DNA of 64,000 nt from Bacteroidales bacterium (GCA_024413595.1 JAKSUC010000009.1:1-64000), one strand, 5' to 3'. Counted from the first letter of the stretch, positions 5,799 through 19,061 are shown. Notes: a model not told the origin generated them from the sequence alone. Program-made: numbers and translations.

Positions 5799-6071
5799 CT
5801 ATTTATCATCATAATGACCTAAGGCTTGAAGAACAAGAACTAATATTTTATCATCATAAACCTCATAAACCAAACGATTTTTTTTATCAATAGTTCTAGA
5901 ATAAGTATTTGGTAATCCTTTTAGTTGTTCAATATTTCCAACACCAACTAAAGGATGTTCTTGTAACTCTAATAAAAATAATTCAATTTTTTTCTTAATG
6001 GCTTTACTACCAGACTTTTTTATCTTATTAATGTCAGCTAAAGCTCTTTTAGTGAATTGTATTTCGTACAT
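5799..6071 (-). CDS. YoeB/Txe-type mRNA interferase toxin
   Basis: A 90-residue RelE/ParE-superfamily toxin of the Txe/YoeB branch: FTKRALADINKIKKSG at the start, a middle LKGLPNTYSRTIDKKNRLVYEV (the YoeB signature of SRRID-x-KNRLVY), and the terminal ALGHYDDK whose His-Tyr is part of the YoeB ribonuclease site. YoeB enzymes cut mRNA in the ribosomal A site when the antitoxin is degraded. The antitoxin gene lies immediately upstream, separated by one base, the usual antitoxin-first order. Complete and with no obvious lesions. Confidence 0.92.
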   Translation of the reverse strand: MYEIQFTKRALADINKIKKSGSKAIKKKIELFLLELQEHPLVGVGNIEQLKGLPNTYSRTIDKKNRLVYEVYDDKILVLVLQALGHYDDK

Positions 6072-6072
6072 A

Positions 6073-6330
6073 TTAGCCCCAAATTAAATCATGAATCTCT
6101 TGTTTTGATTTTACAGAAAAACATTCACCACGTTCAAATTCTGCATGTCCTTCTTCCAAATCTTTATAAAATTGTTCAGACTCATAATAATCAACATCAT
6201 TATGTTTTTGAGATTTGAGTTTAGTTAAAAATTTTGAAACTTTTTCAACAATTTCACAATCAAGATCTTGACTAAGAATTTCTCTTGCCAAATTAATTCG
6301 TAAAACATTTATATCCACAGTCGACTCCAT
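6073..6330 (-). CDS. Antitoxin partner of the YoeB-type toxin
   Basis: An 85-residue acidic protein just upstream of and co-transcribed with the toxin. The N-terminal half (INLAREILSQDLDCEIVEKVSKFLTKL) is helical and does not look like the usual YefM/Phd fold; the C-terminal half, with FYKDLEEGHAEFERGEC, is the likely toxin-binding tail. Similar small proteins precede YoeB/RelE toxins in many Bacteroidetes genomes. The assignment rests mainly on position and size. Confidence 0.78.
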   Translation of the reverse strand: MESTVDINVLRINLAREILSQDLDCEIVEKVSKFLTKLKSQKHNDVDYYESEQFYKDLEEGHAEFERGECFSVKSKQEIHDLIWG

Positions 6331-8174: not shown

Positions 8175-8221
8175 AATCTATCACGATTTATTTTGTTCAA
8201 ATATCAGAAAAAAAAAGAAAT

Positions 8222-8256
8222 AACAAAAAAAAAGCTCGAATATTTGTCGAGCTTTT
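8222..8256 (-). terminator. Intrinsic terminator of the 8278-9000 gene
   Basis: On the minus strand the sequence reads AAAAGCTCGA, a 7-base loop, TCGAGCTTTT and then more T residues, ending about 22 bases past the stop codon of the upstream gene. Confidence 0.85.
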
Positions 8257-8277
8257 AAACATATTTAAGAATTAAAA

Positions 8278-9000
8278 TTATTCTTCTGTTTCGTAAGATT
8301 TATTAACTACGTTTTCAAGTTTAGTAGCAGACTCTCTTAACGATTTCATTTCTTCCTCAGGAATATCAGCTATTTTCTTTATTTCATCAAGTTCAGATGT
8401 CATAATTTTTAAATAAGAATCAATGTTTGCTTGAAGCGAATATGCAGCTAATAAAAATTTATTAAATGATTTATCTTGCATAATTTCAATAATAGGATTT
8501 TTAACACCTTCGCAATCTTTGTCAAAATATTTTTCGTATTGAACAAGTCTAATTTTATTAAAAGCCTCAATTTCAACTTTACTTAAATCTTTGTAAGAAT
8601 ATACTTGACCAATTTTTAAACGTAAATCTGTGTTATCAATAAATTCTCCTTTAGTTATAAAATTTTCTTCAATCCATCGATCGTATTGAACAAAAGACAA
8701 TTCAGCGAAAATATCGTAAAAATTATAAATTGAAGTAGAATCTTCTAAAGTTTCATCATCCATTTCACTGACACTTTCAAGAGTTTCTTGAATATAATCT
8801 AATTGATTTTTACAAGCACTAATTTGATCAACATATCTTTCAAGATTGATAATTGTAGCTGCTGTAATTTTTACATAATTTTCATGAGCATCGTGAACTT
8901 CAACTGCTTTGTCAAAGCCGAATGTTAACAAAATACCAATAATAGTACCTAATGCTCCGTTGGCTACATCTTTTAGCCATGATTTTGTTTCGTCTGTCAT
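8278..9000 (-). CDS. Hypothetical membrane-anchored helical protein
   Basis: Family not recognised. The 240-residue protein has a single hydrophobic segment near the N-terminus (about residues 14-30, GALGTIIGILLTFGFD) and an otherwise hydrophilic, mostly helical body with many Glu/Asp/Lys residues, consistent with a single-pass protein with a long extramembrane domain. No catalytic motif is visible. It resembles in layout the small anchored proteins annotated only as DUFs in Bacteroidetes. Monocistronic, closed by a strong terminator. Confidence 0.7.
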   Translation of the reverse strand: MTDETKSWLKDVANGALGTIIGILLTFGFDKAVEVHDAHENYVKITAATIINLERYVDQISACKNQLDYIQETLESVSEMDDETLEDSTSIYNFYDIFAELSFVQYDRWIEENFITKGEFIDNTDLRLKIGQVYSYKDLSKVEIEAFNKIRLVQYEKYFDKDCEGVKNPIIEIMQDKSFNKFLLAAYSLQANIDSYLKIMTSELDEIKKIADIPEEEMKSLRESATKLENVVNKSYETEE

Positions 9001-9156
9001 TTCTATTTTATGTTTTTAATTAATATTTCGGCAAATTTAAAAAAATTAATTGATTACAACTTTAATTCGCATATTATTTTTTAAGAAAATAAAATAATAA
9101 AAAAATGTAATTAGGTATTAAAATTGCTGTATATCAATTGAAAAAAAAGACTGAAA

Positions 9157-9891
9157 ATGAAAGAAGAATTAATAAAAAATTTTGTATCAAATCGAGATTA
9201 CACTTGGAAAGAAAAAATATATGACAAAGGAAAATATATCGGACAATTTTCGAAAGATAAACGCGAAGGTAAAGGAATAATGTATTACAACGATGGTTCG
9301 GTAAACTTTGGAGAATGGAAATATAATTATTTTCAGTCTGGGAAAATGATTTCTCCACAAAATGATATTTTTGAAGGAAAATATTCTGATGAAAAATCAC
9401 TTACTGGAATTTGTCATGCTCATGATGGTAGTATAATTTATGGAAGTTGGGTATATGGAAAATTGTTTGGTCATGCTACAAAAATTTTTCCTGAAAATCA
9501 TCCTAAAGGTTGTATAAAATTTTCTGGACTTTTTAATAATGATTTGCCAAATGGAATAGGAATGTTAACAACAAAACACGATTTATATTATGGAATTTGG
9601 GAAAACGGAAAACAAATTGCTGATTATAGAGATATAGACAATTCTCTAGAAAATGTAACAGACCGAACACGACAATTAATTATAGAATTAATATGTCCAG
9701 AACCTGAATTATTTTCATTTTCTAAATCTTTTACAAATGATTATAAAGCAAGCAAACAAGATTTACAAAATATCTTTTATGGTTGCGAAGGTGAATTTGG
9801 AATATTAATCAAAGAAACCGAAACAGAAAAAATAGAAAATACAAATCAACTTATAGAATTAATAATGAAAAAATTATCAGAATTGATTTAA
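9157..9891 (+). CDS. MORN-repeat protein
   Basis: A 244-residue cytoplasmic protein whose first two thirds are MORN repeats, recognisable as G-x-Y-x-G-x-(F/W) units: KGKYIGQFSKDKREGKGIMY, DGSVNFGEWKY, DIFEGKYSDEK, DGSIIYGSWVYG, IKFSGLFNNDLPNGIG and DLYYGIWENGK (about residues 25-165). The remaining 80 residues are helical and lack recognisable motifs. MORN repeats usually mediate protein or lipid contacts; no enzymatic domain is attached. The gene stands alone; promoter not obvious. Confidence 0.8.
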   Translation: MKEELIKNFVSNRDYTWKEKIYDKGKYIGQFSKDKREGKGIMYYNDGSVNFGEWKYNYFQSGKMISPQNDIFEGKYSDEKSLTGICHAHDGSIIYGSWVYGKLFGHATKIFPENHPKGCIKFSGLFNNDLPNGIGMLTTKHDLYYGIWENGKQIADYRDIDNSLENVTDRTRQLIIELICPEPELFSFSKSFTNDYKASKQDLQNIFYGCEGEFGILIKETETEKIENTNQLIELIMKKLSELI

Positions 9892-10344
9892 TAAAAATTT
9901 TAAATTCTAACCAAATATTATTATGTTATAATTCATTTCTATTTATTATTATAAAATATGGCGAAAAATTGACACTCTAAATATATACATACAATTATAA
10001 TACTTTTTTCATTCCTGGTATTAATTTGAATAACCAAGTAACTATAAAAGAAACAAAAGTAGCTAATATAGTACTATAAATTAATTTTAACACTACCGGC
10101 ATAACAAGACTATCAATTGCAAATTATATTGTCAATAATACAAAGTGTAAAATATTTTAACAAATAATATAAAATATAATTACAGATATATGACACCTAT
10201 AAAATAATTGGACAAAATCCACATTCCGAATTTTGCATTCAGTTTATTTTGTTAAAAAGCCATTAGGGCTGTCAAGATTTCCAAAAAAAATGCTATTATA
10301 GGGATGTGAAATTATATAGGTCTTGTGAAAATATTCTGATTCTT
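9892..10344. other. Gene-poor stretch at the left edge of the accessory island
   Basis: No full-length gene is visible. It holds a short hydrophobic reading frame on the minus strand (separate entry) and a region near 10190-10310 that is less AT-biased than the surroundings (around gccattagggctgtcaag) and looks like decayed coding or IS-derived DNA, but nothing there can be named. Confidence 0.4.
9995..10102 (-). pseudogene. Possible C-terminal remnant of a membrane protein
   Basis: A 35-codon frame ending in TAA, two membrane-spanning stretches rich in Ile/Leu/Val and a basic end (TWLFKLIPGMKKVL). The shape recalls the last helix of acyltransferase-3 type membrane proteins in this phylum, but the resemblance is weak. 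An in-frame stop lies just upstream, so if it is a remnant the rest of the gene is gone. Confidence 0.25.
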
Positions 10345-10379
10345 GTTCCTCAACTCGTTTTTTTTACCACTTAAGTAAC
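10345..10379. repeat. Degenerate copy of the 35-nt hairpin repeat
   Basis: Same length and order as the four good copies (GTTCC-arm, CAACTC, T-run, TACCACTTA, arm ending AAC, followed by GAAAAT), but with substitutions in both arms that break the stem. Confidence 0.7.
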
Positions 10380-10613
10380 GAAAATAGAAGATGGGAAACT
10401 AGGTAAAAATCTTAAATACAATCGTATAAAGTACTAAATTACCTAGAATAAACAAGATTATATTATGATTTTTTAGTCCATTTATTTCAATAAAAAAAAT
10501 AATAACAACAAATAAAAATTATTTATAATTCCAAAATTAGAAGTATTTTTTGTGGGTAATATTTTTTATCCTTTTATTTATCAACACACACTCTCTCATA
10601 GCCCCACAAAATT

Positions 10614-10699
10614 GTTCCCTAACTCATTTTTTTTACCACTTAGGGAACGAAAATCGTGATTTTTGTTCCCTAACTCGGATTTTTGGATAGTTAGGGAAC
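10614..10699. repeat. Left pair of 35-nt hairpin repeats bounding the island
   Basis: Two copies, at 10614-10648 and 10665-10699, each GTTCCCTAA, a 17-base middle and TTAGGGAAC, so each can fold as a 9-bp stem. The copies start 51 bases apart and are joined by GAAAATCGTGATTTTT. The same pair, same pitch and same joining sequence recurs at 17091-17176. Confidence 0.92.
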
Positions 10700-10724
10700 G
10701 AGAATCGGTGTTTTAACATAATTA

Positions 10725-10731
10725 AGGAGGT
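10725..10731 (+). promoter_or_regulatory. Strong Shine-Dalgarno ahead of the 30-codon ORF
   Basis: AAGGAGG lies a few bases before the ATG at 10736. Such full-length Shine-Dalgarno sites are rare in this window, where almost all starts are preceded only by A/T-rich sequence, so it marks this short frame as probably translated and probably foreign. Confidence 0.65.
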
Positions 10732-10735
10732 AACT

Positions 10736-10828
10736 ATGAAAAACTATTTCTATTGCTCTTGCTTCGAGATAGACATAACCTCGGCGACGAATGAGGAAAT
10801 TACACTTGTGGCGTTGAAGGTGGAGTGA
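10736..10828 (+). CDS. Small ORF (30 residues) with strong ribosome-binding site
   Basis: The frame reads MKNYFYCSCF, then EIDITSATNE and EITLVALKVE, ending in TGA. It is too short for routine gene finders. Support for it being real: a perfect Shine-Dalgarno, a G+C-richer base composition than its surroundings, and a hairpin plus T-run just after the stop. It starts 37 bases after the left repeat pair. Function unknown; it could be a small protein, a leader peptide, or the surviving start of a lost larger gene. Confidence 0.5.
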   Translation: MKNYFYCSCFEIDITSATNEEITLVALKVE

Positions 10829-10833
10829 GAAAG

Positions 10834-10857
10834 TGTGAAAAATATTCACGTTTTTTT
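10834..10857 (+). terminator. Terminator after the small ORF
   Basis: GTGAA, a five-base loop, TTCAC, then seven T residues beginning six bases after the small ORF's stop. Short stem, but the T-run is clear. Confidence 0.6.
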
Positions 10858-10890
10858 GATTGAAGAGAACTCCCAATTGAAAAAAATAAC

Positions 10891-10898
10891 TATCTTTG
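10891..10898 (+). promoter_or_regulatory. Probable promoter -7 box of the Gabija operon
   Basis: TATCTTTG matches the Bacteroidetes TAnnTTTG box and is correctly placed about 50 bases ahead of the first frame of the operon. The -33 TTG element is not convincing. Confidence 0.45.
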
Positions 10899-10951
10899 TA
10901 AAAAGGGCTTGAGTTTAAGGTCTATTAAATATTAATTTAAACTTGTTTACA

Positions 10952-11566
10952 ATGTTATCTATATTAGGAGGCATATTATTTATTATAATTATTTTTGTTT
11001 TGTTGGAGGCTTCAGCAAGCAAAGGAAATCCCAAAGAAAAGTTGAACTCGGCAGTAATTACTGTTGCCTCAGAGGTTGCTGGCGGTGTAATCAATACTGC
11101 CAATACAATACTGGAAAGTTCTTCTGAGAAAGAGGTTCGACTTGCGAAGGAATATGTATGGCATAGAAACTGTGACATTTAAAATTATAATAGTTATCTT
11201 AACAGAAAGTCTATTAAGGATTTAATTGGGGTTGAAGAACAATTATCTAAGAAATTAAAAGTATTGAATATACCAGAAAAGAAGTGGACAAAAGTAGCAA
11301 GAATGCTATTGCTTATTGGGGTAATTGTTCATATCGAAGGAGAAACCAAAACAGGTAATGATATATATAGTGTACATTTTAGGGAAAGGATATTGGAGGA
11401 TTATAAAGATGGAGGATTATATAATGTACCGCTTTTATTGAAGGCTCTTAAGGTCTTGAAAATCCCAGTTCGGGAATGGATTAAATATGGTAATATCGTT
11501 ATTGATATGCACAACTTAAGAAACGATCCAGATTTCAAGAAATATTCTTTGATATTTGATTCTTAA
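10952..11566 (+). pseudogene. Unknown island gene interrupted by one in-frame stop
   Basis: Two frames, 10952-11182 and one ending at 11566, lie in the same reading frame and are separated by a single TAA at 11180-11182; the codons between the stop and the next possible start (11264, a TTG) remain open and look protein-like (SIKDLIGVEEQLSKKLKV). Read through, they give about 204 residues: an N-terminal membrane helix (LSILGGILFIIIIFVLLEA), a linker, then a soluble domain ending HNLRNDPDFKKYSLIFDS. The simplest reading is one gene broken by a nonsense mutation; two separate short genes is the alternative. It directly precedes gajA in the same orientation. No family recognised. Confidence 0.5.
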
Positions 11567-11629
11567 ATGTATTCTTTTTTGAGATTTAAGATCAATTGGT
11601 ATAGTTTAAATAATTATATAATTATTATT

Positions 11630-13525
11630 ATGTATTTATCTAGAATTGAAATAACAAATTACAAGGGAATTGATCATTTAGTAGTTAATTTCAATTCCTC
11701 TCTAAATGTAGTTATTGGTAGTAATGGCTGTTGTAAATCATCGTTAATTGATGCTATAAGATTATTTTATTGCATTGGCGATAAAGACCAAGACTTGAGT
11801 GTGGATATTGATGATTTTCATATCCATTTTAATGATGATGGTTCATATTCACAAGCAGATAAAATAACTATTGATTATACTTTTGAGGAATTATCTGATT
11901 CTCAGAAGGGGGCTTATATAAATTATTTGTGTGATATTGACCATAAAATTGTTGCACAAGTTAGATTAGAATATTCTAAAATTGAAAACAATAGAATACA
12001 AAGAAGATGTGTGCCTGGAAATCCTGATAATTCTGTTTCTTTGGATTATAATACCCTTTCTTTGTTTAAATCCTATTATCTTGGAGCTGTTAGGGATAGC
12101 ACAAAAGATTTGATGAGCACAAAGAATAATTTGTTAGGAAATGTTATCAGAAGGAAGATTAACCAAAACAATTCTGCAAATGATATTAGGAATATTATAA
12201 AGCAGGCTAATGAAACTTTGTTGGATAGGGAAGAGGTTAAATCAACACGAAAGGGTGTTAATGAAAATATGTCAAATATTTTCAAGCACGATTATGATGA
12301 AGTTGATTTAAAAATTGAAGACAATAGGATTGAATATATCGTTAATGCAATTAAGCCTATTTTGAAGTTGGGACACGACAAAGAGATGAAGTTGTGGCAA
12401 AATAGTTTGGGGTATAATAATTTGATATACATAGCCACTGTATTAAGCGATATTAAAGATAATTATGACAATGATAAGGATGAAATATACGCATTGTTTA
12501 TTGAAGAACCTGAAGCTCATCTACATACTCAACTTCAATTAAATTTATATAGTTTTTTGGTGAATGCTAGTTATATTGAAAATTCTCAATTATTCATTAC
12601 AACTCATTCTCCTACGTTAACTTCACGAATTCCGTTGGACAATCTTTTCGTGTTGAATAGAAATATTGTTAGATTATCTGACTGTTTCTTAGAACGTGAA
12701 AATGAAAATATAATTTGTGATGTGGTGGGGCAAAATAAAATTGATGATAGTAAGTCTAAAAAATATATGAAGATGTTAGAACGGTATTTAGATGTTACTC
12801 GTTCTCAAATGCTTTATGCTCGTGGTTGCGTTTTTATTGAAGGTATTTCAGAGGCACTTTTAATAGATGTGTTTTCTGAAGTTATTAACAAAAAATTGAG
12901 TGACAAACAAATTGAAATTGTTGATACAGGAGGAACTGCGTTTGCTCAATTTCTGATGTTATATAATTCAAGCGACTCTAACAGGAGATTGTCTAACAAG
13001 GTAGCAGTTATTACTGATGGTGATCAGTTTACTGATTCAAAAAACAAAGAATATTCATTAGACAAACTTATCGCCGATGATTTTGCTAAATTGTATGAAT
13101 TGAGAGAGAATATAAAAAATGGTCAGTCAAATAAACGAGTTGCTAATTTGAGAAGCATTTCAAATAATCAAGAAACAATTTTGATTTGCGAAGGCTATAA
13201 AACATTAGAATATCAAATATGTTTGGCTAATATAGGAAATTATATTTCAGAGGTTAAATTAAATGAATTGTATTTGTTTATTAAAAATAATTATAAAAAT
13301 CAGTATGTAAAGATTGAGGATTTTATTAATTCGAAAGCTGGTATTGATTTGCAGGATGATGATAAAATGGACATTGCCATTTTATTGTGGAAATGTATTC
13401 CTCAGAAGTCAACCTTTGCTCAAGATTTGTCGATGCATTTGAAGGACAAGTTAATAAATAGTTCTTCCTTCAATTTTAATGTGCCTGATTATATAATTGA
13501 CGCTATTAATCATTTAACTATTTAG
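11630..13525 (+). CDS. gajA: Gabija nuclease GajA (OLD-family ATPase with TOPRIM domain)
   Basis: A 631-residue protein with an ABC/SMC-like ATPase followed by a TOPRIM nuclease, the OLD-family layout of GajA, the DNA-cleaving subunit of the Gabija anti-phage complex. Visible motifs: N-terminal MYLSRIEITNYKGID; Walker A GSNGCCKSS at 30-38; signature region NSLGYNNLIYIA; Walker B ALFIEEPEAHLH near 290; switch histidine ITTHSPTL; TOPRIM glutamate FIEGISEALL near 400 and acidic pair ITDGDQF near 462. The residue before the Walker A lysine is Cys where Gly is usual. The ATG at 11630 is chosen over an upstream in-frame start because only from there does the sequence fit the family. gajB follows after 3 bases. 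The order ATPase/TOPRIM then UvrD-like helicase is diagnostic for Gabija. Confidence 0.9.
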   Translation: MYLSRIEITNYKGIDHLVVNFNSSLNVVIGSNGCCKSSLIDAIRLFYCIGDKDQDLSVDIDDFHIHFNDDGSYSQADKITIDYTFEELSDSQKGAYINYLCDIDHKIVAQVRLEYSKIENNRIQRRCVPGNPDNSVSLDYNTLSLFKSYYLGAVRDSTKDLMSTKNNLLGNVIRRKINQNNSANDIRNIIKQANETLLDREEVKSTRKGVNENMSNIFKHDYDEVDLKIEDNRIEYIVNAIKPILKLGHDKEMKLWQNSLGYNNLIYIATVLSDIKDNYDNDKDEIYALFIEEPEAHLHTQLQLNLYSFLVNASYIENSQLFITTHSPTLTSRIPLDNLFVLNRNIVRLSDCFLERENENIICDVVGQNKIDDSKSKKYMKMLERYLDVTRSQMLYARGCVFIEGISEALLIDVFSEVINKKLSDKQIEIVDTGGTAFAQFLMLYNSSDSNRRLSNKVAVITDGDQFTDSKNKEYSLDKLIADDFAKLYELRENIKNGQSNKRVANLRSISNNQETILICEGYKTLEYQICLANIGNYISEVKLNELYLFIKNNYKNQYVKIEDFINSKAGIDLQDDDKMDIAILLWKCIPQKSTFAQDLSMHLKDKLINSSSFNFNVPDYIIDAINHLTI

Positions 13526-13528
13526 AGT

Positions 13529-15295
13529 ATGGATTATGAATTGACGGAAGAAAGACAACGTTATTTAGACGCAAGAGGTCGTATTGTATTGTCTGCGTGC
13601 CCTGGTAGCGGGAAAACTACTAGTGTTGTTAAAAAATTAAAATATTTGGCAGAAGAATGTCAACAGAAATATGGACATTATAGAGGGATTGCTTGTCTTT
13701 CATTTACAAACAAGGCTTGTGATGAAATAAAAAGCAAATACCAATTGATGCATAATGAAAATTTTGCATTTCCGAATATTGTGTCTACTATTGATAGTTT
13801 TATTTTTGAATATATTGTTTCTCCATTTTGGAAATGTTCTAATTTGGTCCATTATAAACCTTTTGTTACAAATGATGGAGAATTTATACATAGCTTGTAT
13901 TTTGCCACAAATTCAGAAGGAGAAAGGTTTCCTTTGGTCGGAAGACAACAAATACATATAATGCCTCCGGAAAAAACTTCTTTGGGTATAAATGCAAGAT
14001 ATTTTGGTAATAAAAAGGTTGAAAAGGAAGACGAAAAAGAATATATAGAGAGCATTGTTAAATATAGAATGAGAAAGGGTGTTATTAATAGTAATGATGC
14101 TTTGTATCTTGCCAATTTAATTATGCACAATAATCCAGAAATTGCAAAAGTAATTATTTCTAGATTCCCTTATGTAATAATTGATGAAGCGCAGGATACT
14201 TCATTGATGCAGAATAATCTGTTTAGTATATTGGTTGAGGCTGGGTTAAGTAATATTGAATATATAGGTGATAGTTATCAAGCTATATACGAATGGCGAG
14301 ATGCTAATCCTCAATTTTTTAGTGACTTGTTGGCGGATGATTCCTTTCAGAAATTAGTTTTGTCTGAGAATAGAAGGTCCGTTCAACGTATTATTGATAT
14401 GTATAGTAAGATAAGGACTGACTCTGATGCGCCAATTATTTCACATAATGTTATTGATCGCAACATACCAATAAAAGTATATTTTTATAACAATGAAAAT
14501 TTGTCTCTGGTTATAAATGATTATTTAGAAATATGTAAATCAAATTCATTGTCAAATTGTCATATATTAGTTAGAGGTAATAGTTTTATTGGAAATTATC
14601 TAAACACAAGACAGCAGGTTGCTTATTGGAAATCTGATATCCCATATATGTTAATTGATGTTTTGGATAATTATAAAAGATGTAACTATTCAGAGGCCGT
14701 TTATATATTAAAAAAGATTTTTGTAAAATTAGTTTTCCCAACAGATTTTACAAAACAAAAAGAATATTTATCAGAAAATAATTGTAATGAAAATTCTAAA
14801 TTAATGGCTATTCTACCATTGATACCTACTTTGGAAGAGACTTTTGAGAATTGGACTTCAAAATCACAAATAGTATTGAAAAATTGTATGGGTTTAGAGC
14901 AGGAACCTGATTTTTCTCCCAAAAAGCGAATTGATGGATTTCGTATTGCTGAATTAAAACGTCAATCTTTATCTCAATATTATTCTAACAATACCAATTC
15001 TCAAATTCCAATTGAAACCATTCATTCTTCTAAGGGTGCTTCTTATGGAGGTGTACTTCTCGTTTTATCAAAGAATAGTGCTGGTAATAATATTTCTTTG
15101 AGTGAGTTTAAAAGAAATGGGAACGAAATATCGGAAAAGCAAAGGTTGGTTTATGTAGCTTGTTCAAGAGCTGAACAATTTTTAGCGTTAGCAATTCCAG
15201 ATAGTGTGAGCGAGTCTCAAGTCATAGAAACATTAGGAGTGAATGCTGATAATATATCAAGAGTTGGAATTCAAATGCGTTTGAATTTAACGTAA
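13529..15295 (+). CDS. gajB: Gabija helicase GajB (UvrD/Rep-type)
   Basis: A 588-residue superfamily 1A helicase: Walker A ACPGSGKTT (about 23-31), motif Ia CLSFTNKACDEIK, motif II VIIDEAQD near 217, motif III YIGDSYQAIYEWR, motif IV LSENRR, motif V ETIHSSKGASYGG and motif VI YVACSRAEQFLALA near 545. In Gabija the UvrD-like GajB binds GajA and, by current models, senses DNA or nucleotide changes during infection and activates cleavage. It is somewhat longer than the best studied GajB proteins (about 500 residues). It starts 3 bases after gajA. No lesions seen, so the pair should be functional provided the unusual GajA Walker A tolerates its Cys. Confidence 0.9.
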   Translation: MDYELTEERQRYLDARGRIVLSACPGSGKTTSVVKKLKYLAEECQQKYGHYRGIACLSFTNKACDEIKSKYQLMHNENFAFPNIVSTIDSFIFEYIVSPFWKCSNLVHYKPFVTNDGEFIHSLYFATNSEGERFPLVGRQQIHIMPPEKTSLGINARYFGNKKVEKEDEKEYIESIVKYRMRKGVINSNDALYLANLIMHNNPEIAKVIISRFPYVIIDEAQDTSLMQNNLFSILVEAGLSNIEYIGDSYQAIYEWRDANPQFFSDLLADDSFQKLVLSENRRSVQRIIDMYSKIRTDSDAPIISHNVIDRNIPIKVYFYNNENLSLVINDYLEICKSNSLSNCHILVRGNSFIGNYLNTRQQVAYWKSDIPYMLIDVLDNYKRCNYSEAVYILKKIFVKLVFPTDFTKQKEYLSENNCNENSKLMAILPLIPTLEETFENWTSKSQIVLKNCMGLEQEPDFSPKKRIDGFRIAELKRQSLSQYYSNNTNSQIPIETIHSSKGASYGGVLLVLSKNSAGNNISLSEFKRNGNEISEKQRLVYVACSRAEQFLALAIPDSVSESQVIETLGVNADNISRVGIQMRLNLT

Positions 15296-15346
15296 AAATT
15301 AGATAATTCACATTATTTTTGATGTTTAGTTATTGAATGCCGAACT

Positions 15347-15613
15347 ATGACCCCAACCAATTCTACAATATTCCAATCTGCCTTGGATTCGATTCCTGAG
15401 GAAGTGAATATCCAGGTGAACTTGTCGTTTGACATTGCCGACAAGATTGCAGAGATTCTGTCGAGGCAAAATATGACTCAACGTGATTTCGCAAAGAAAA
15501 TCAAGCGGTCGGAGGCTGAGGTTTCTCGCTGGCTTAGCGGTACGCATAATTTCACGTTGTCAACAATCGCCAAAATCTCTGCGGTGTTGGGAGAAAAAAT
15601 TGTACGGGTTTAA
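15347..15613 (+). CDS. XRE-family HTH protein (HigA-like, orphan)
   Basis: An 88-residue protein with a Cro/XRE helix-turn-helix in the C-terminal half (LSRQNMTQRDFAKKI, then SEAEVSRWLSGTHNFTLSTIAKISAVLG), the pattern seen in HigA/RelB-type antitoxins and small regulators. No toxin-sized frame is adjacent: upstream is gajB, downstream the convergent ATPase. Its base composition is much richer in G+C than gajB, so it arrived separately. It could be the stranded antitoxin of a lost module or the partner or regulator of the ATPase next to it. Confidence 0.8.
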   Translation: MTPTNSTIFQSALDSIPEEVNIQVNLSFDIADKIAEILSRQNMTQRDFAKKIKRSEAEVSRWLSGTHNFTLSTIAKISAVLGEKIVRV

Positions 15614-15623
15614 TCCCCCCTCT

Positions 15624-17039
15624 CTATTCCGCCACAAACAAATCATCGGTCACAATCTCGTTTTGGATGTTTCCGCTGTATTCGTTTCGTTTTAGACCGT
15701 ATGTGGTCACCATTGTCAGGTACAGCGATTTCTTGGTTCCTGAGAGAATCCGGAACTGTTCGCGACGCTCCCTCAGGTGCTCGTCGTAGCGCTTGTCGAT
15801 GGTGTATTCCGATTGTGAGAATTTCATCTCGCAAAGGTTTATCACCTGGTCTCTGCGGTCGATGAGGAGGTCTATCTGGAAATCCTTGTTCTTGTATGCG
15901 AATGCGTTGGTCTCCACTCCAAGTATGCCCAACTTGTTTTTTATTTGCCAGATGTGGTGCAGACAGACTTGCTCGAATGCGTATCCCGACCAGGCTCTTC
16001 TTGATGGTGAGTCTGTCATATTCGACCAGTGGTTCTTGTCGTTTCCCGAATATCCCTTTACATAGCGGAGGTAATATAGCGAGAAGAGGTCGCTGAGTTG
16101 GTAAATAACCTCGCGCTTCTTTTTGCCAAACGAGTTGTATGACCTGATGAAGTCGCTGTCTATCAAATCGTTGAGAATATACGACAGTTTTCCGCCGTCA
16201 GGAATTTTCAATGACTCCTTGATTTCCAGACGCGACATTCCTATGGCTTTCTGCGCCAGAAGTTCAATCACGTTTTTGCAGATTGTGGACTCTTTGAATA
16301 GCGACGAGAACAGGAAATTGTATTCGGTTTTCAGTTTGGCGTTGTCGTAGAAAAACAGTCTGTCGATGTTCTGACTTAGAGAGAACTCTTTCTCCAACAT
16401 ACTCAGGTACAATGGAATACCGCCCAAAATCATATAGGCTTCAAGTATCTGATACCTGTTGAGAGCCAGGCCGTTGCATTTAAGGTATTCCTCGGTTTCG
16501 GCAAGGTTGAATGGCGCAAGGTACATTGTCTGCGTCATTCTGTTGTATAGTCCACCCTTGTTGCCGAAAAGTTTGTCCCTCATCCACGTGGTTGCCGAAC
16601 CGCAGACTATCATCATTATTTTTTTGTTGGCTGACGCGTAACTGTTCCAGAAATATTCAAACGCTCTCAGAAATTCCGATTTCTGAGTATCGATCCAGGG
16701 AAGTTCGTCGAGGAATATCAGGATTCTGTCCTTGTGGCTCAATGTCTCTATGTAGTCCTTGAGCATAGCCAGGGCGTCGAACCAGTTTTTGAATTTTGGT
16801 AATTTCTGATTGGAGTATTCGGTAAGTTGTCTCCAAAATTCATTCAACTGTTCGGTCTTGCTACCTTTGTATATTCCTGTAAAATAGAAATCGAATTCGT
16901 TGTTGAAGAACTCTTTTACAAGATAAGTCTTGCCCACTCGTCGACGACCGTAAATCGCCACGAATTCCGTCTTGCCCGAGTTGTAGAGTTTCCTCAGTTG
17001 CGCTTTCTCGAATGATCTTCCTACCAATAGTTTTCCCAT
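15624..17039 (-). CDS. AAA/STAND-like ATPase with DUF234 nuclease-like tail
   Basis: A 471-residue protein of the COG1672 'archaeal-type ATPase' group common in Bacteroidetes. Walker A YGRRRVGKTYLV at about 30-41, Walker B ILIFLDELPWID near 106-117, sensor-like MIVCGSATTWM, a winged-helix region (about 260-320, ELLAQKAIGMSRLEIKESL), then the DUF234 domain, whose FQIDLLIDRRDQVINLCEMK carries the D...ExK pattern of PD-(D/E)XK nucleases. These proteins are frequent in genomic islands and are suspected of defence or selfish roles, but function is not established. The G+C content is conspicuously high compared with the rest of the window. Convergent with the HTH gene, 10 bases apart; the right-hand hairpin repeats begin about 50 bases upstream of its start. 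Confidence 0.85.
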   Translation of the reverse strand: MGKLLVGRSFEKAQLRKLYNSGKTEFVAIYGRRRVGKTYLVKEFFNNEFDFYFTGIYKGSKTEQLNEFWRQLTEYSNQKLPKFKNWFDALAMLKDYIETLSHKDRILIFLDELPWIDTQKSEFLRAFEYFWNSYASANKKIMMIVCGSATTWMRDKLFGNKGGLYNRMTQTMYLAPFNLAETEEYLKCNGLALNRYQILEAYMILGGIPLYLSMLEKEFSLSQNIDRLFFYDNAKLKTEYNFLFSSLFKESTICKNVIELLAQKAIGMSRLEIKESLKIPDGGKLSYILNDLIDSDFIRSYNSFGKKKREVIYQLSDLFSLYYLRYVKGYSGNDKNHWSNMTDSPSRRAWSGYAFEQVCLHHIWQIKNKLGILGVETNAFAYKNKDFQIDLLIDRRDQVINLCEMKFSQSEYTIDKRYDEHLRERREQFRILSGTKKSLYLTMVTTYGLKRNEYSGNIQNEIVTDDLFVAE

Positions 17040-17061
17040 AGCCGAATTAATTATTTGAGCG

Positions 17062-17069
17062 CAAAGATA
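17062..17069 (-). promoter_or_regulatory. Probable promoter -7 box of the DUF234 ATPase gene
   Basis: On the minus strand TATCTTTG occurs 22 bases before the ATG, matching the phylum's TAnnTTTG box. The right-hand hairpin pair lies just upstream of it. Confidence 0.55.
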
Positions 17070-17090
17070 AACAAAAATATTCGGATTTTT

Positions 17091-17176
17091 GTTCCCTAAC
17101 TCGATTTTTTTACCACTTAGGGAACGAAAATCGTGATTTTTGTTCCCTAACTCGGGGTTTTTACCACTTAGGGAAC
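17091..17176. repeat. Right pair of 35-nt hairpin repeats bounding the island
   Basis: Copies at 17091-17125 and 17142-17176, each with GTTCCCTAA and TTAGGGAAC arms, start 51 bases apart and are joined by GAAAATCGTGATTTTT, the same as the left pair. Over roughly 95 bases the two pairs are near-identical and in direct orientation. Confidence 0.92.
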
Positions 17177-17198
17177 AGGAATCGGTTTTTTTTCACAA

Positions 17199-17234
17199 AA
17201 AAGAGGTTATTCCAAATTTGAAATAACCTCTTTT
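17199..17234 (-). terminator. Terminator of the metallopeptidase gene
   Basis: AAAAGAGGTTAT and its complement ATAACCTCTTTT separated by 12 bases, followed on the minus strand by TT runs, about 26 bases after the stop codon. Confidence 0.85.
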
Positions 17235-17259
17235 ATAATATTGTATTGTTACACAAAAT

Positions 17260-18153
17260 CTACAATTGACTTTCGCTACAAGTTAAAATGTCGTTAGCTC
17301 TACTTAAATCACCAGTTGTTAAACCAAGTTTAAGCCATTTCATACGTTGCGCAGAAGTTCCATGAGTAAATTCTTTAGCATTAACAGTTCCACGTGCAGA
17401 TTTTTGTAGATAATCATCACCTATTTGATGAGCACAATTAATAGCTTCTTGTAAATCGCCATCTTCTAAAGATTTAAATGTTTTATTTTCATAATATCCC
17501 CAAACTCCTGCATAAAAATCTGCCAAAAGTTCGATTCTAACACTAATTTTATTAGCTTCAGCTTCTGTTCTACACTGGTTCATTTGTTGATGAAGTTTTT
17601 GAAGCAAACCTGTTTCATATTCAACATGGTGACCAACTTCGTGAGCAATAACATAAGCATAAGCAAAATCACCATCAGCACCTAATTGTCTTTTCATTAA
17701 AGTAAAAAAAGATAAATCAAGATAAACAGCTTGATCGGCAGAACAATAAAATGGTCCAGTAGCCGAAGTCGCACTACCACAACCAGTATTTACGCCATCT
17801 TTAAATAATACCATTTTTGGACAATGATAAGTTAAATTGCTATTATCAAAAACTTTTGTCCAAACATCTTCGGTACTTGCTAAGATTTTTTTAGAAAAAG
17901 AAGCTAATTCTTGTTCCTCTTTAGAATAATTAGCTTGTCCACCCGTAGAAACTTCTTCAGTTTGAGTGATATTTCCTTGATTTTGAGCAAATTCAAGCAA
18001 AGTAGAATTGCCAGTTTTGGCATAAATTAAATAACCAATTATTAAAACAATAATTGAAAGGCAACCACCTTTTTTACCAGTAGAAACATTTGATAAACCA
18101 CCGCCTCTACGGTCTTCTACATTAGAACTTTCTCTTCTTCCACTTAATTTCAT
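17260..18153 (-). CDS. YpfJ-type neutral zinc metallopeptidase
   Basis: A 297-residue membrane-anchored protease: a basic, glycine-rich start (MKLSGRRESSNVEDRRGGG) shared by the YpfJ family, one membrane segment at about 31-45, and a catalytic domain with the zinc motif HEVGHHVE (H171, E172, H175). The family-typical CGSATSATGPFYCSAD and LDLSFF segments precede it, and the third-ligand region contains RIELLADFYAGVWG. Physiological substrates of the family are unknown. Single-gene unit with its own terminator. Full length, nothing odd. Confidence 0.93.
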   Translation of the reverse strand: MKLSGRRESSNVEDRRGGGLSNVSTGKKGGCLSIIVLIIGYLIYAKTGNSTLLEFAQNQGNITQTEEVSTGGQANYSKEEQELASFSKKILASTEDVWTKVFDNSNLTYHCPKMVLFKDGVNTGCGSATSATGPFYCSADQAVYLDLSFFTLMKRQLGADGDFAYAYVIAHEVGHHVEYETGLLQKLHQQMNQCRTEAEANKISVRIELLADFYAGVWGYYENKTFKSLEDGDLQEAINCAHQIGDDYLQKSARGTVNAKEFTHGTSAQRMKWLKLGLTTGDLSRANDILTCSESQL

Positions 18154-18278
18154 AATGATTTTTTTAAGTTAACAGATAAATTAATTGATAAACAAATTTA
18201 CAAAAAAATATCGTATTGAATGATAAAAATTCAAAAAATAAAATTTTTTTTTTAAATTCGCATAAAAATAAGAATAAA

Positions 18279-19061
18279 ATGATTTCAGCAACAGAACAAA
18301 TAAAATTAGGATTTTCATCTTACGGAAAAGCTTTTAAAGTAATAGTATCAAACAAAATGGGTAAATTATTTATTATTCCATTGATACTCAACATAATATT
18401 AGTATTTTTAATATGGCATTATAGTGGAAATTTATCAGATTGGTTAAACACAAAAATCACTGAAACTGGAGCAATATCAACTAATTGGGCAGGATTTGTT
18501 GGCGGAGCAACAACTGTTTTAACAAAATTAATATGCTTTGTAATATTTATCTTTTTAGGTGGTAGTATTGTAATTATGTGTATGTCACCAATATATTCAA
18601 CATTATCAGAAAAAACAGACACATTTTTAACAGGTAGACAATTTGATTTTAGTGCAAAACAAACTATGAAAGATATTTGGAGAGGAGTTTTAATTGCATT
18701 AAAAAATACAATTAAACAAACTTTTTTTATAGCACTATGTTTTATTGCTAGCTTTATACCAGTAATTGGGGTAATAATGCCATTTATTATATTTTTAATA
18801 AATAGTTATTACTTTGGATTTTCATTTATGGACTATACAAACGAAAGATTACGAAGAGACAGAAAAGAAAGTGCTAGAATAATAAGCAAATACCGTTGGT
18901 TAGCAATTGCAAATGGAGCTGTTTACACATTAACATTATACATAATGTGCGGAACCTTTATCGCAGTATTTACAGGAGGAATTTCTACCGTAGCTGCAAC
19001 AATAGCGCAATTAGAAGCCGAAAAAATTGACAATTCTACAGGAACTAACATAAATCAATAA
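18279..19061 (+). CDS. EI24 domain membrane protein (CysZ-like)
   Basis: A 260-residue polytopic protein of the EI24/CysZ family: the start MISATEQIKLGFSSYGKAFK, four to five hydrophobic segments, and the family's conserved FSFMDYTNERLRRDRKES stretch. E. coli CysZ is a sulphate channel, but in Bacteroidetes the substrate of EI24 proteins is unknown. The frame is open for 21 codons further upstream, but that is Lys/Asn-rich non-coding-like sequence, so the ATG directly before the family N-terminus is used. mqnA follows after 2 bases, implying one transcript. Confidence 0.82.
   Translation: MISATEQIKLGFSSYGKAFKVIVSNKMGKLFIIPLILNIILVFLIWHYSGNLSDWLNTKITETGAISTNWAGFVGGATTVLTKLICFVIFIFLGGSIVIMCMSPIYSTLSEKTDTFLTGRQFDFSAKQTMKDIWRGVLIALKNTIKQTFFIALCFIASFIPVIGVIMPFIIFLINSYYFGFSFMDYTNERLRRDRKESARIISKYRWLAIANGAVYTLTLYIMCGTFIAVFTGGISTVAATIAQLEAEKIDNSTGTNINQ

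Follow-up and report, generated by a model that had tools for sequence, protein, structure and literature searches.

Palindrome pairs around a Gabija-containing insertion as candidate private recognition arrays of the PDC-S27 ATPase-nuclease gene family

Few 'defence candidates' in archaea and rumen genomes are as abundant and as little understood as the PDC-S27 proteins, for which the descriptors in use are ATPase_2/COG1672 with a PD-(D/E)XK C-terminus and 'archaeal ATPase fused to DUF234'. In the literature, PDC-S27 is an abundant untested phage-defence candidate in which an ATPase is fused to a PD-(D/E)XK domain (PMC12988326), and 2,865 were counted in rumen genomes (PMC13356809). Private arrays, helical phasing and unit movement are not mentioned in the accessible portions of the open-access papers on PDC-S27 or on arrays of the kind described here, and we found no published description of private arrays of PDC-S27 genes in those papers.

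Several described systems resemble this locus in part. Like RAYT/REP and IS200/IS605 elements, it combines palindromes that regularly accompany a nuclease gene with solo copies; however, no Y1 transposase is linked here, the palindromes are not dispersed, each gene copy has its own stem and the spacing follows the double-stranded helix. Tn7-type elements, whose recognition ends lie near promoters, also combine an AAA+ ATPase with a PD-(D/E)XK nuclease (TnsA/TnsC), whereas in PDC-S27 both domains are in one protein, no DDE transposase is known beside it, and neither a defined second end nor a 5-bp duplication was seen. ORC/Cdc6 initiators use inverted origin repeats as binding sites and are, with the Walker ATPase of Pyrococcus abyssi, the best fold matches; PDC-S27 differs in having an extra nuclease domain and in its position at its own promoter rather than at an origin. 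Mobile genes of a selfish type with self-specific operators beside the promoter are also known from restriction-modification control proteins and toxin-antitoxin systems, but no methylase or antitoxin was recognised here, and long palindromes also occur after the gene and alone. Integron gene cassettes, with attC-type hairpins after each gene, fit poorly, as the stems differ from paralogue to paralogue and, in sequences read by eye, have no GTTRRRY/RYYYAAC attC core.

Palindromes and gene content of the inserted stretch

The window, by which we mean the whole 64,000-nt stretch of Bacteroidales DNA that was analysed, contains four exact 35-nt palindromes of the form GTTCCCTAA...TTAGGGAAC, at 10614-10648, 10665-10699, 17091-17125 and 17142-17176. 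They share orientation, a 51-nt pitch and the joiner sequence, exactly as a preliminary description of this DNA had it, and 0 such palindromes arose in 100 shuffles. The left and right blocks, described there as nearly identical, match at 89% over 97 nt. The features of the locus are as follows.

8278..9000, minus strand: left flanking gene (240 aa), adjoining the metallopeptidase gene in relatives
9001..17259, no strand: stretch missing from 12 of 16 genus relatives; there the site is empty and the two flanking genes adjoin
10333..10385, minus strand: worn single palindrome of the same family, folding lost (similarity and fold z-score)
10612..10708, minus strand: left array, a tandem pair matching the right array in stem and orientation, lacking an ATPase gene of its own, probably a solo array
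11567..13525, plus strand: Gabija GajA, OLD-type ATPase with TOPRIM (PADLOC, E 6e-243; Pfam)
13529..15295, plus strand: Gabija GajB, UvrD-like helicase (PADLOC, E 4e-92; Pfam)
15347..15613, plus strand: small HTH protein, PDC-M64C-like (PADLOC), tail to tail with the ATPase gene, 10 bp apart
15624..17039, minus strand: PDC-S27 ATPase-nuclease, 43% G+C (PADLOC, Pfam, alignment, AlphaFold2, Foldseek)
17062..17069, minus strand: TATCTTTG, Bacteroidota -7-type box (TAnnTTTG) of the ATPase promoter (sequence and phasing)
17084..17185, minus strand: right array, two tandem palindromes upstream of the ATPase gene, on its coding strand
17260..18153, minus strand: right flanking gene, neutral zinc metallopeptidase (PF04228; Pfam)

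Sixteen genus relatives carry the right flanking gene, and in 12 of them the zinc metallopeptidase gene is followed directly, on the same strand, by a homologue of the 240-aa gene, which indicates that approximately 8.2 kb (9000-17260) has been inserted in the window. The island previously placed at 10614-17176 thus reflects a real insertion, but the insertion extends beyond the interval enclosed by the repeats: it also holds a MORN-repeat gene (9157-9891) and the worn palindrome, both outside the intact repeat pairs. Because the MORN-repeat gene lies inside the insertion yet outside the repeats, the insertion was probably assembled stepwise.

As had been proposed, the content between the repeat blocks is accessory, consisting of GajA and GajB (adjacent, and a complete Gabija pair by PADLOC and Pfam), the small HTH protein and the PDC-S27 ATPase. 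Since the PADLOC GajA models start at residue 22, the true start of GajA is probably near 11630. A sharp shift in base usage had also been reported; it is present and takes two steps rather than one: the flanks have 23-27% G+C, Gabija has approximately 30% together with a strong G skew, and the ATPase gene reaches 43%, suggesting that cargo and ATPase were probably acquired separately. To the left of the island, at 5799-6330, a YoeB-type toxin gene and an upstream 85-aa ORF probably form a toxin-antitoxin pair.

The worn palindrome is 87% identical to the intact sequence over 53 nt. Folded as single strands, the intact blocks are much more stable than shuffles (z = -6.0 and -7.1), compared with z = 0.9 for the worn copy, and Rfam gave no match to a known RNA family at 8200-18300. 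The earlier suggestion that the worn copy reflects turnover at this site agrees with our results, in which worn and solo copies point the same way.

Arrays across the PDC-S27 family and their helical phasing

The window ATPase is a full-length member of PDC-S27 (PADLOC model, E 2.7e-193, residues 4-468 of 471) and comprises an ATPase_2 (AAA+) domain, a winged-helix-like middle and a C-terminal PD-(D/E)XK domain with the motif QID390...CE404xK406. Walker A (GRRRxGK), Walker B (FxDE), D390, E404 and K406 are invariant across 25 aligned paralogues. Foldseek searches with the AlphaFold2 model (pLDDT 91.5) returned the P. abyssi Walker ATPase (2qen) and Cdc6/Orc1 bound to origin DNA as best matches, and a weak profile match to VchTnsC was obtained (E = 0.009). 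On the basis of these models, an ORC-like AAA+ ATPase with a winged helix and a nuclease would be a plausible reader of the array. Windowed partial correlation gave no clear peak for the protein region governing stem specificity.

Homologues of this ATPase number from 3 to 49 per genome in the genus, including 16 in the genome of the window. In the first 29 homologues, tandem palindromes were present by the start of almost every gene, with differing wording; stems seen beside different paralogues include GTTCCCTAA, GGTGCCGTAAGT, CTCCGTAACT, CCGCCCTAAGTAC, AGCGGAATC and CAGCCAAATCT, among others. Within 200 nt upstream of 102 PDC-S27 genes, the best palindrome had a median score of 17.8, compared with 8.0 in controls and 7.8 in shuffles (Mann-Whitney p = 5e-37 against 200 control gene upstreams, a value to be read with the non-independence of related genes in mind). 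In the window, the adjoining PDC-S27 gene has the right pair as its promoter-side array.

We further compared stems between pairs of genes with unrelated flanks. Similar stems were found in 0-2% of pairs below 50% ATPase identity, rising to 29% at 62-70%, 48% at 70-80% and 83% at 80-92%. At the level of sequence, the stem co-diverges with the ATPase, and each paralogue has a private array. Two stems searched for in 18 genus genomes occurred mostly as one pair per genome, 52-53 bp apart, with an inner spacer of nearly always 17-18 nt although 10 to 26 or 30 was allowed; reversed control patterns of the same stems gave 0 matches in these genomes. Another PDC-S27 gene of the window's own genome (L055, G000:C68) has seven tandem palindromes at a 53-bp pitch.

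The spacing of the palindromes follows the DNA helix. Centre-to-centre pitch within arrays is mostly 51-55, 63-64 or 72-74 bp with nothing between, corresponding to 5, 6 and 7 helical turns, and some longer pitches of 99-119 bp are less regular. Distances from the proximal palindrome to the -7 box of the promoter cluster at 26, 38, 48-50 and 58-59 bp; in the window, the proximal palindrome has its centre 39 bp from the TAnnTTTG box of the ATPase gene, among these phased distances. With one unit per 75%-identity group, the best period of the promoter distance was 10.5 bp (R = 0.65, nominal p ~7e-9); grouping at 60% identity gave p = 1.6e-5, and periods of 7, 8, 13 and 15 yielded weak signals at most. 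Two control motifs occurred too rarely to serve as a comparison. The array is thus in helical phase with the promoter, as expected of an autoregulated gene, and because both pitch and promoter distance are in phase, the arrays look like double-stranded protein-binding sites. The simplest reading would have a putative protein bound along a single face of B-DNA and adjacent to RNA polymerase, rather than single-strand recognition of hairpins.

These results bear on two further readings of the palindromes. One, raised in the preliminary description, is that they are REP/BIME-like elements mobilised in trans by a Y1 transposase of the RAYT or IS200/IS605 type. Tandem palindromes do lie near a mobile gene, and the genome does contain two Y1_Tnp genes, as had been thought possible; neither carries the window repeat, and pattern and similarity searches of the whole 3.9-Mb genome found 0 copies outside this locus, rather than copies at many intergenic sites. 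Dispersal is also lacking for the two other stems above, with their usual single pair per genome; each stem tracks its own ATPase, and the pitch follows the B-DNA helix, which single-strand hairpin recognition does not require. We consider this reading scarcely credible. The other is that the palindromes terminate transcription and in this way shield the ATPase promoter from read-through, since strong stems are often followed by T runs directly before the promoter. Insulation would need neither a paralogue-specific stem nor tandem, helically phased copies with a constant spacer, so that a terminator function appears very improbable.

Units, variable sites and bracketed genes

The array, the promoter and one ATPase gene together form a unit of approximately 1.6 kb. 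Units with 91-98% DNA identity were found in different species with different flanks (L023/L024, L039/L040, L026/L038, L082/L085 and L072/L073), and in these pairs similarity begins at the outer palindrome, ends within ~11 nt of the ATPase stop codon and does not continue on either side. Any older common flanks would remain visible at 91-98% identity. Two features expected of a transposable element were thus observed: a defined unit that keeps its ends while its flanks differ, and empty sites in relatives.

Orthologous sites differ in occupancy between genomes. At site A, G017 has nothing inserted, G012 has only the array, and G015 and G003 have the filled site. Site B holds an array alone in three genomes and is filled in one other, and all three states occur at site C. 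Two further sites are array-only or filled, and another is empty or filled. Some array-only sites look like deletion derivatives that retain the promoter edge and the last codons. By analogy with variable sites A to E, the left pair in the window may be read as a solo array, either left behind by a second unit or serving as the distal bracket of a composite.

A cognate array lies within 200 nt after the ATPase stop in 17 of 93 units, in direct orientation in 13 of the 14 that could be scored; at the 3' end of most units there is no array, and similarity ends at the stop codon. No clean target-site duplication was found at site A. The ATPase copies within a genome are diverse (best identity at most 74%, median 49%, among sampled full-length genes), which is unlike a proliferating transposon, but short-read MAGs lose identical repeats.

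Direct same-stem arrays bracket Gabija in the window and different genes at L343, L066 and L070. At L343 (G001:C111, 2085-8380), two direct same-stem palindromes enclose 6.2 kb with six glycosyltransferase/polysaccharide-type (capsule-type) genes, and this cluster adjoins a different AAA-ATPase gene. At L066 (G009:C25), two PDC-S27 copies of the same specificity, the second broken into fragments, flank a Fic gene; this is the sole same-specificity pair seen inside one genome. At L070, the bracketed gene belongs to PDC-S01. The 75 ORFs neighbouring units are mostly housekeeping genes, with approximately 10 PADLOC matches at E <= 1e-20, a rough figure for the defence share drawn up with no matched control set.

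The preliminary description had interpreted the locus as a site for defence-gene cassettes with recombination repeats at its borders. Part of this stands: Gabija lies between direct arrays at a site that is empty in 12 of 16 relatives, and other accessory genes are bracketed in L343, L066 and L070. A dedicated defence slot, however, does not fit the right array, which belongs to the ATPase promoter as in nearly all 102 family members, nor the predominance of housekeeping genes beside units, nor the confinement of the repeat to this place in the genome. We regard a cassette site as improbable, and the Gabija genes are incidental cargo or neighbours rather than part of the array family.

Probable autoregulation, possible movement and distribution of PDC-S27 units

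The explanation towards which we lean, with somewhat more confidence than doubt, is that the palindrome pairs are private cis-acting recognition arrays of a mobile PDC-S27 ATPase-nuclease gene family. On our best reading, PDC-S27 is a very large bacterial family whose members carry differently worded arrays and move as a gene-plus-array unit. The ORC/Cdc6-like AAA+/winged-helix/PD-(D/E)XK protein would most likely bind its own array as double-stranded DNA and oligomerise on one helix face next to the promoter, thereby controlling its own gene. The same binding would probably mark the left end of the unit during copying or movement, and arrays without an ATPase would be remnants of units. In the window, the right pair would be the live array of the ATPase gene and the left pair a solo array, with Gabija between them. 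The parts of this model differ in strength: arrays throughout the family, stems that diverge together with the ATPase, phasing with the helix, the boundaries of units and sites in empty, solo or filled state were all observed, binding by the cognate ATPase is what we infer, cognate recognition with autoregulation is likely from the sequence evidence, and it is possible, as the least certain part, that the ATPase-nuclease itself drives movement.

Two accounts of how units spread should be weighed, each of which we hold to be possible rather than probable. First, the arrays may be orthogonal operators only. The ATPase genes, whether phage-defence candidates or selfish, would be autoregulated, private operators would avoid cross-talk among paralogues (up to 49 per genome), and spread would occur by ordinary horizontal transfer and homologous recombination. 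This account agrees with helical phasing both between repeats and with the promoter, with the array adjoining the -7 box, with a winged helix in an ORC-like fold, with approximately one array per stem per genome, and with the different palindrome (core GGTTTATAAACC) near the promoters of related PDC-S01 genes; autoregulation and ordinary horizontal transfer could account for the arrays without self-mobilisation. It does not predict that copies 91-98% identical but unrelated in their flanks share exact unit boundaries, nor array-only sites, nor direct-orientation arrays after the stop codon or bracketing other genes.

Second, and just as tentatively, PDC-S27 may represent a mobile element of a new class: its one ORC-like AAA+/winged-helix/PD-(D/E)XK protein would move the gene that encodes it by recognising a private double-stranded palindrome array, and the element could carry bracketed cargo (Gabija, surface-polysaccharide genes, Fic) and would tolerate no more than a single unit per specificity in a genome. 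The lack of a clean target duplication, of a regular second end and of close within-genome copies argues against self-movement. If this account is true, a large share of the counted 'PDC-S27 defence systems' would be such elements.

For the favoured reading of private recognition arrays, the consequences are practical. The private array next to a gene would make that member's DNA target predictable from sequence alone, and binding, autoregulation and movement become directly testable. Where PDC-S27 genes are tallied as phage-defence systems, the tallies may consist largely of mobile self-recognising genes.

Palindromes are also present at PDC-S27 loci of other Bacteroidota and of Bacillota, Spirochaetota and Chloroflexota, in some cases flanking the gene on both sides; the share of loci with arrays outside the genus is approximate, the ORF search having covered about two thirds of 80 distant loci. 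Arrays were found on finished plasmids of Segatella hominis, Butyrivibrio fibrisolvens and Emticicia oligotrophica. With the detector used, no strong array was found in a Wolbachia phage, a gut phage and some distant members. The same array principle may hold in the larger PDC-S01 family.

Other repeats were noted as well. In an order-level relative, a tandem palindrome (GTCCACGAAAGGCAC...GGGCACGAAAGTTTTT) at a contig end (L051, G052:C104, 1-420) proved to be a different, unrelated repeat. In Wolbachia phage WO (L354, MN180249.1), a PDC-S27/DUF234 gene lies within the phage head gene cluster and is preceded by a short tandem ACCGCGG...CCGCGGT repeat around a TATAAT-like (-10-like) box. Within the genus, promoters of PDC-S01 genes (AAA_14/DUF4143) often have perfect palindromes of another type, with the core GGTTTATAAACC or AGTTTATAAACT, as seen at L293, L294, L308, L298 and L299.
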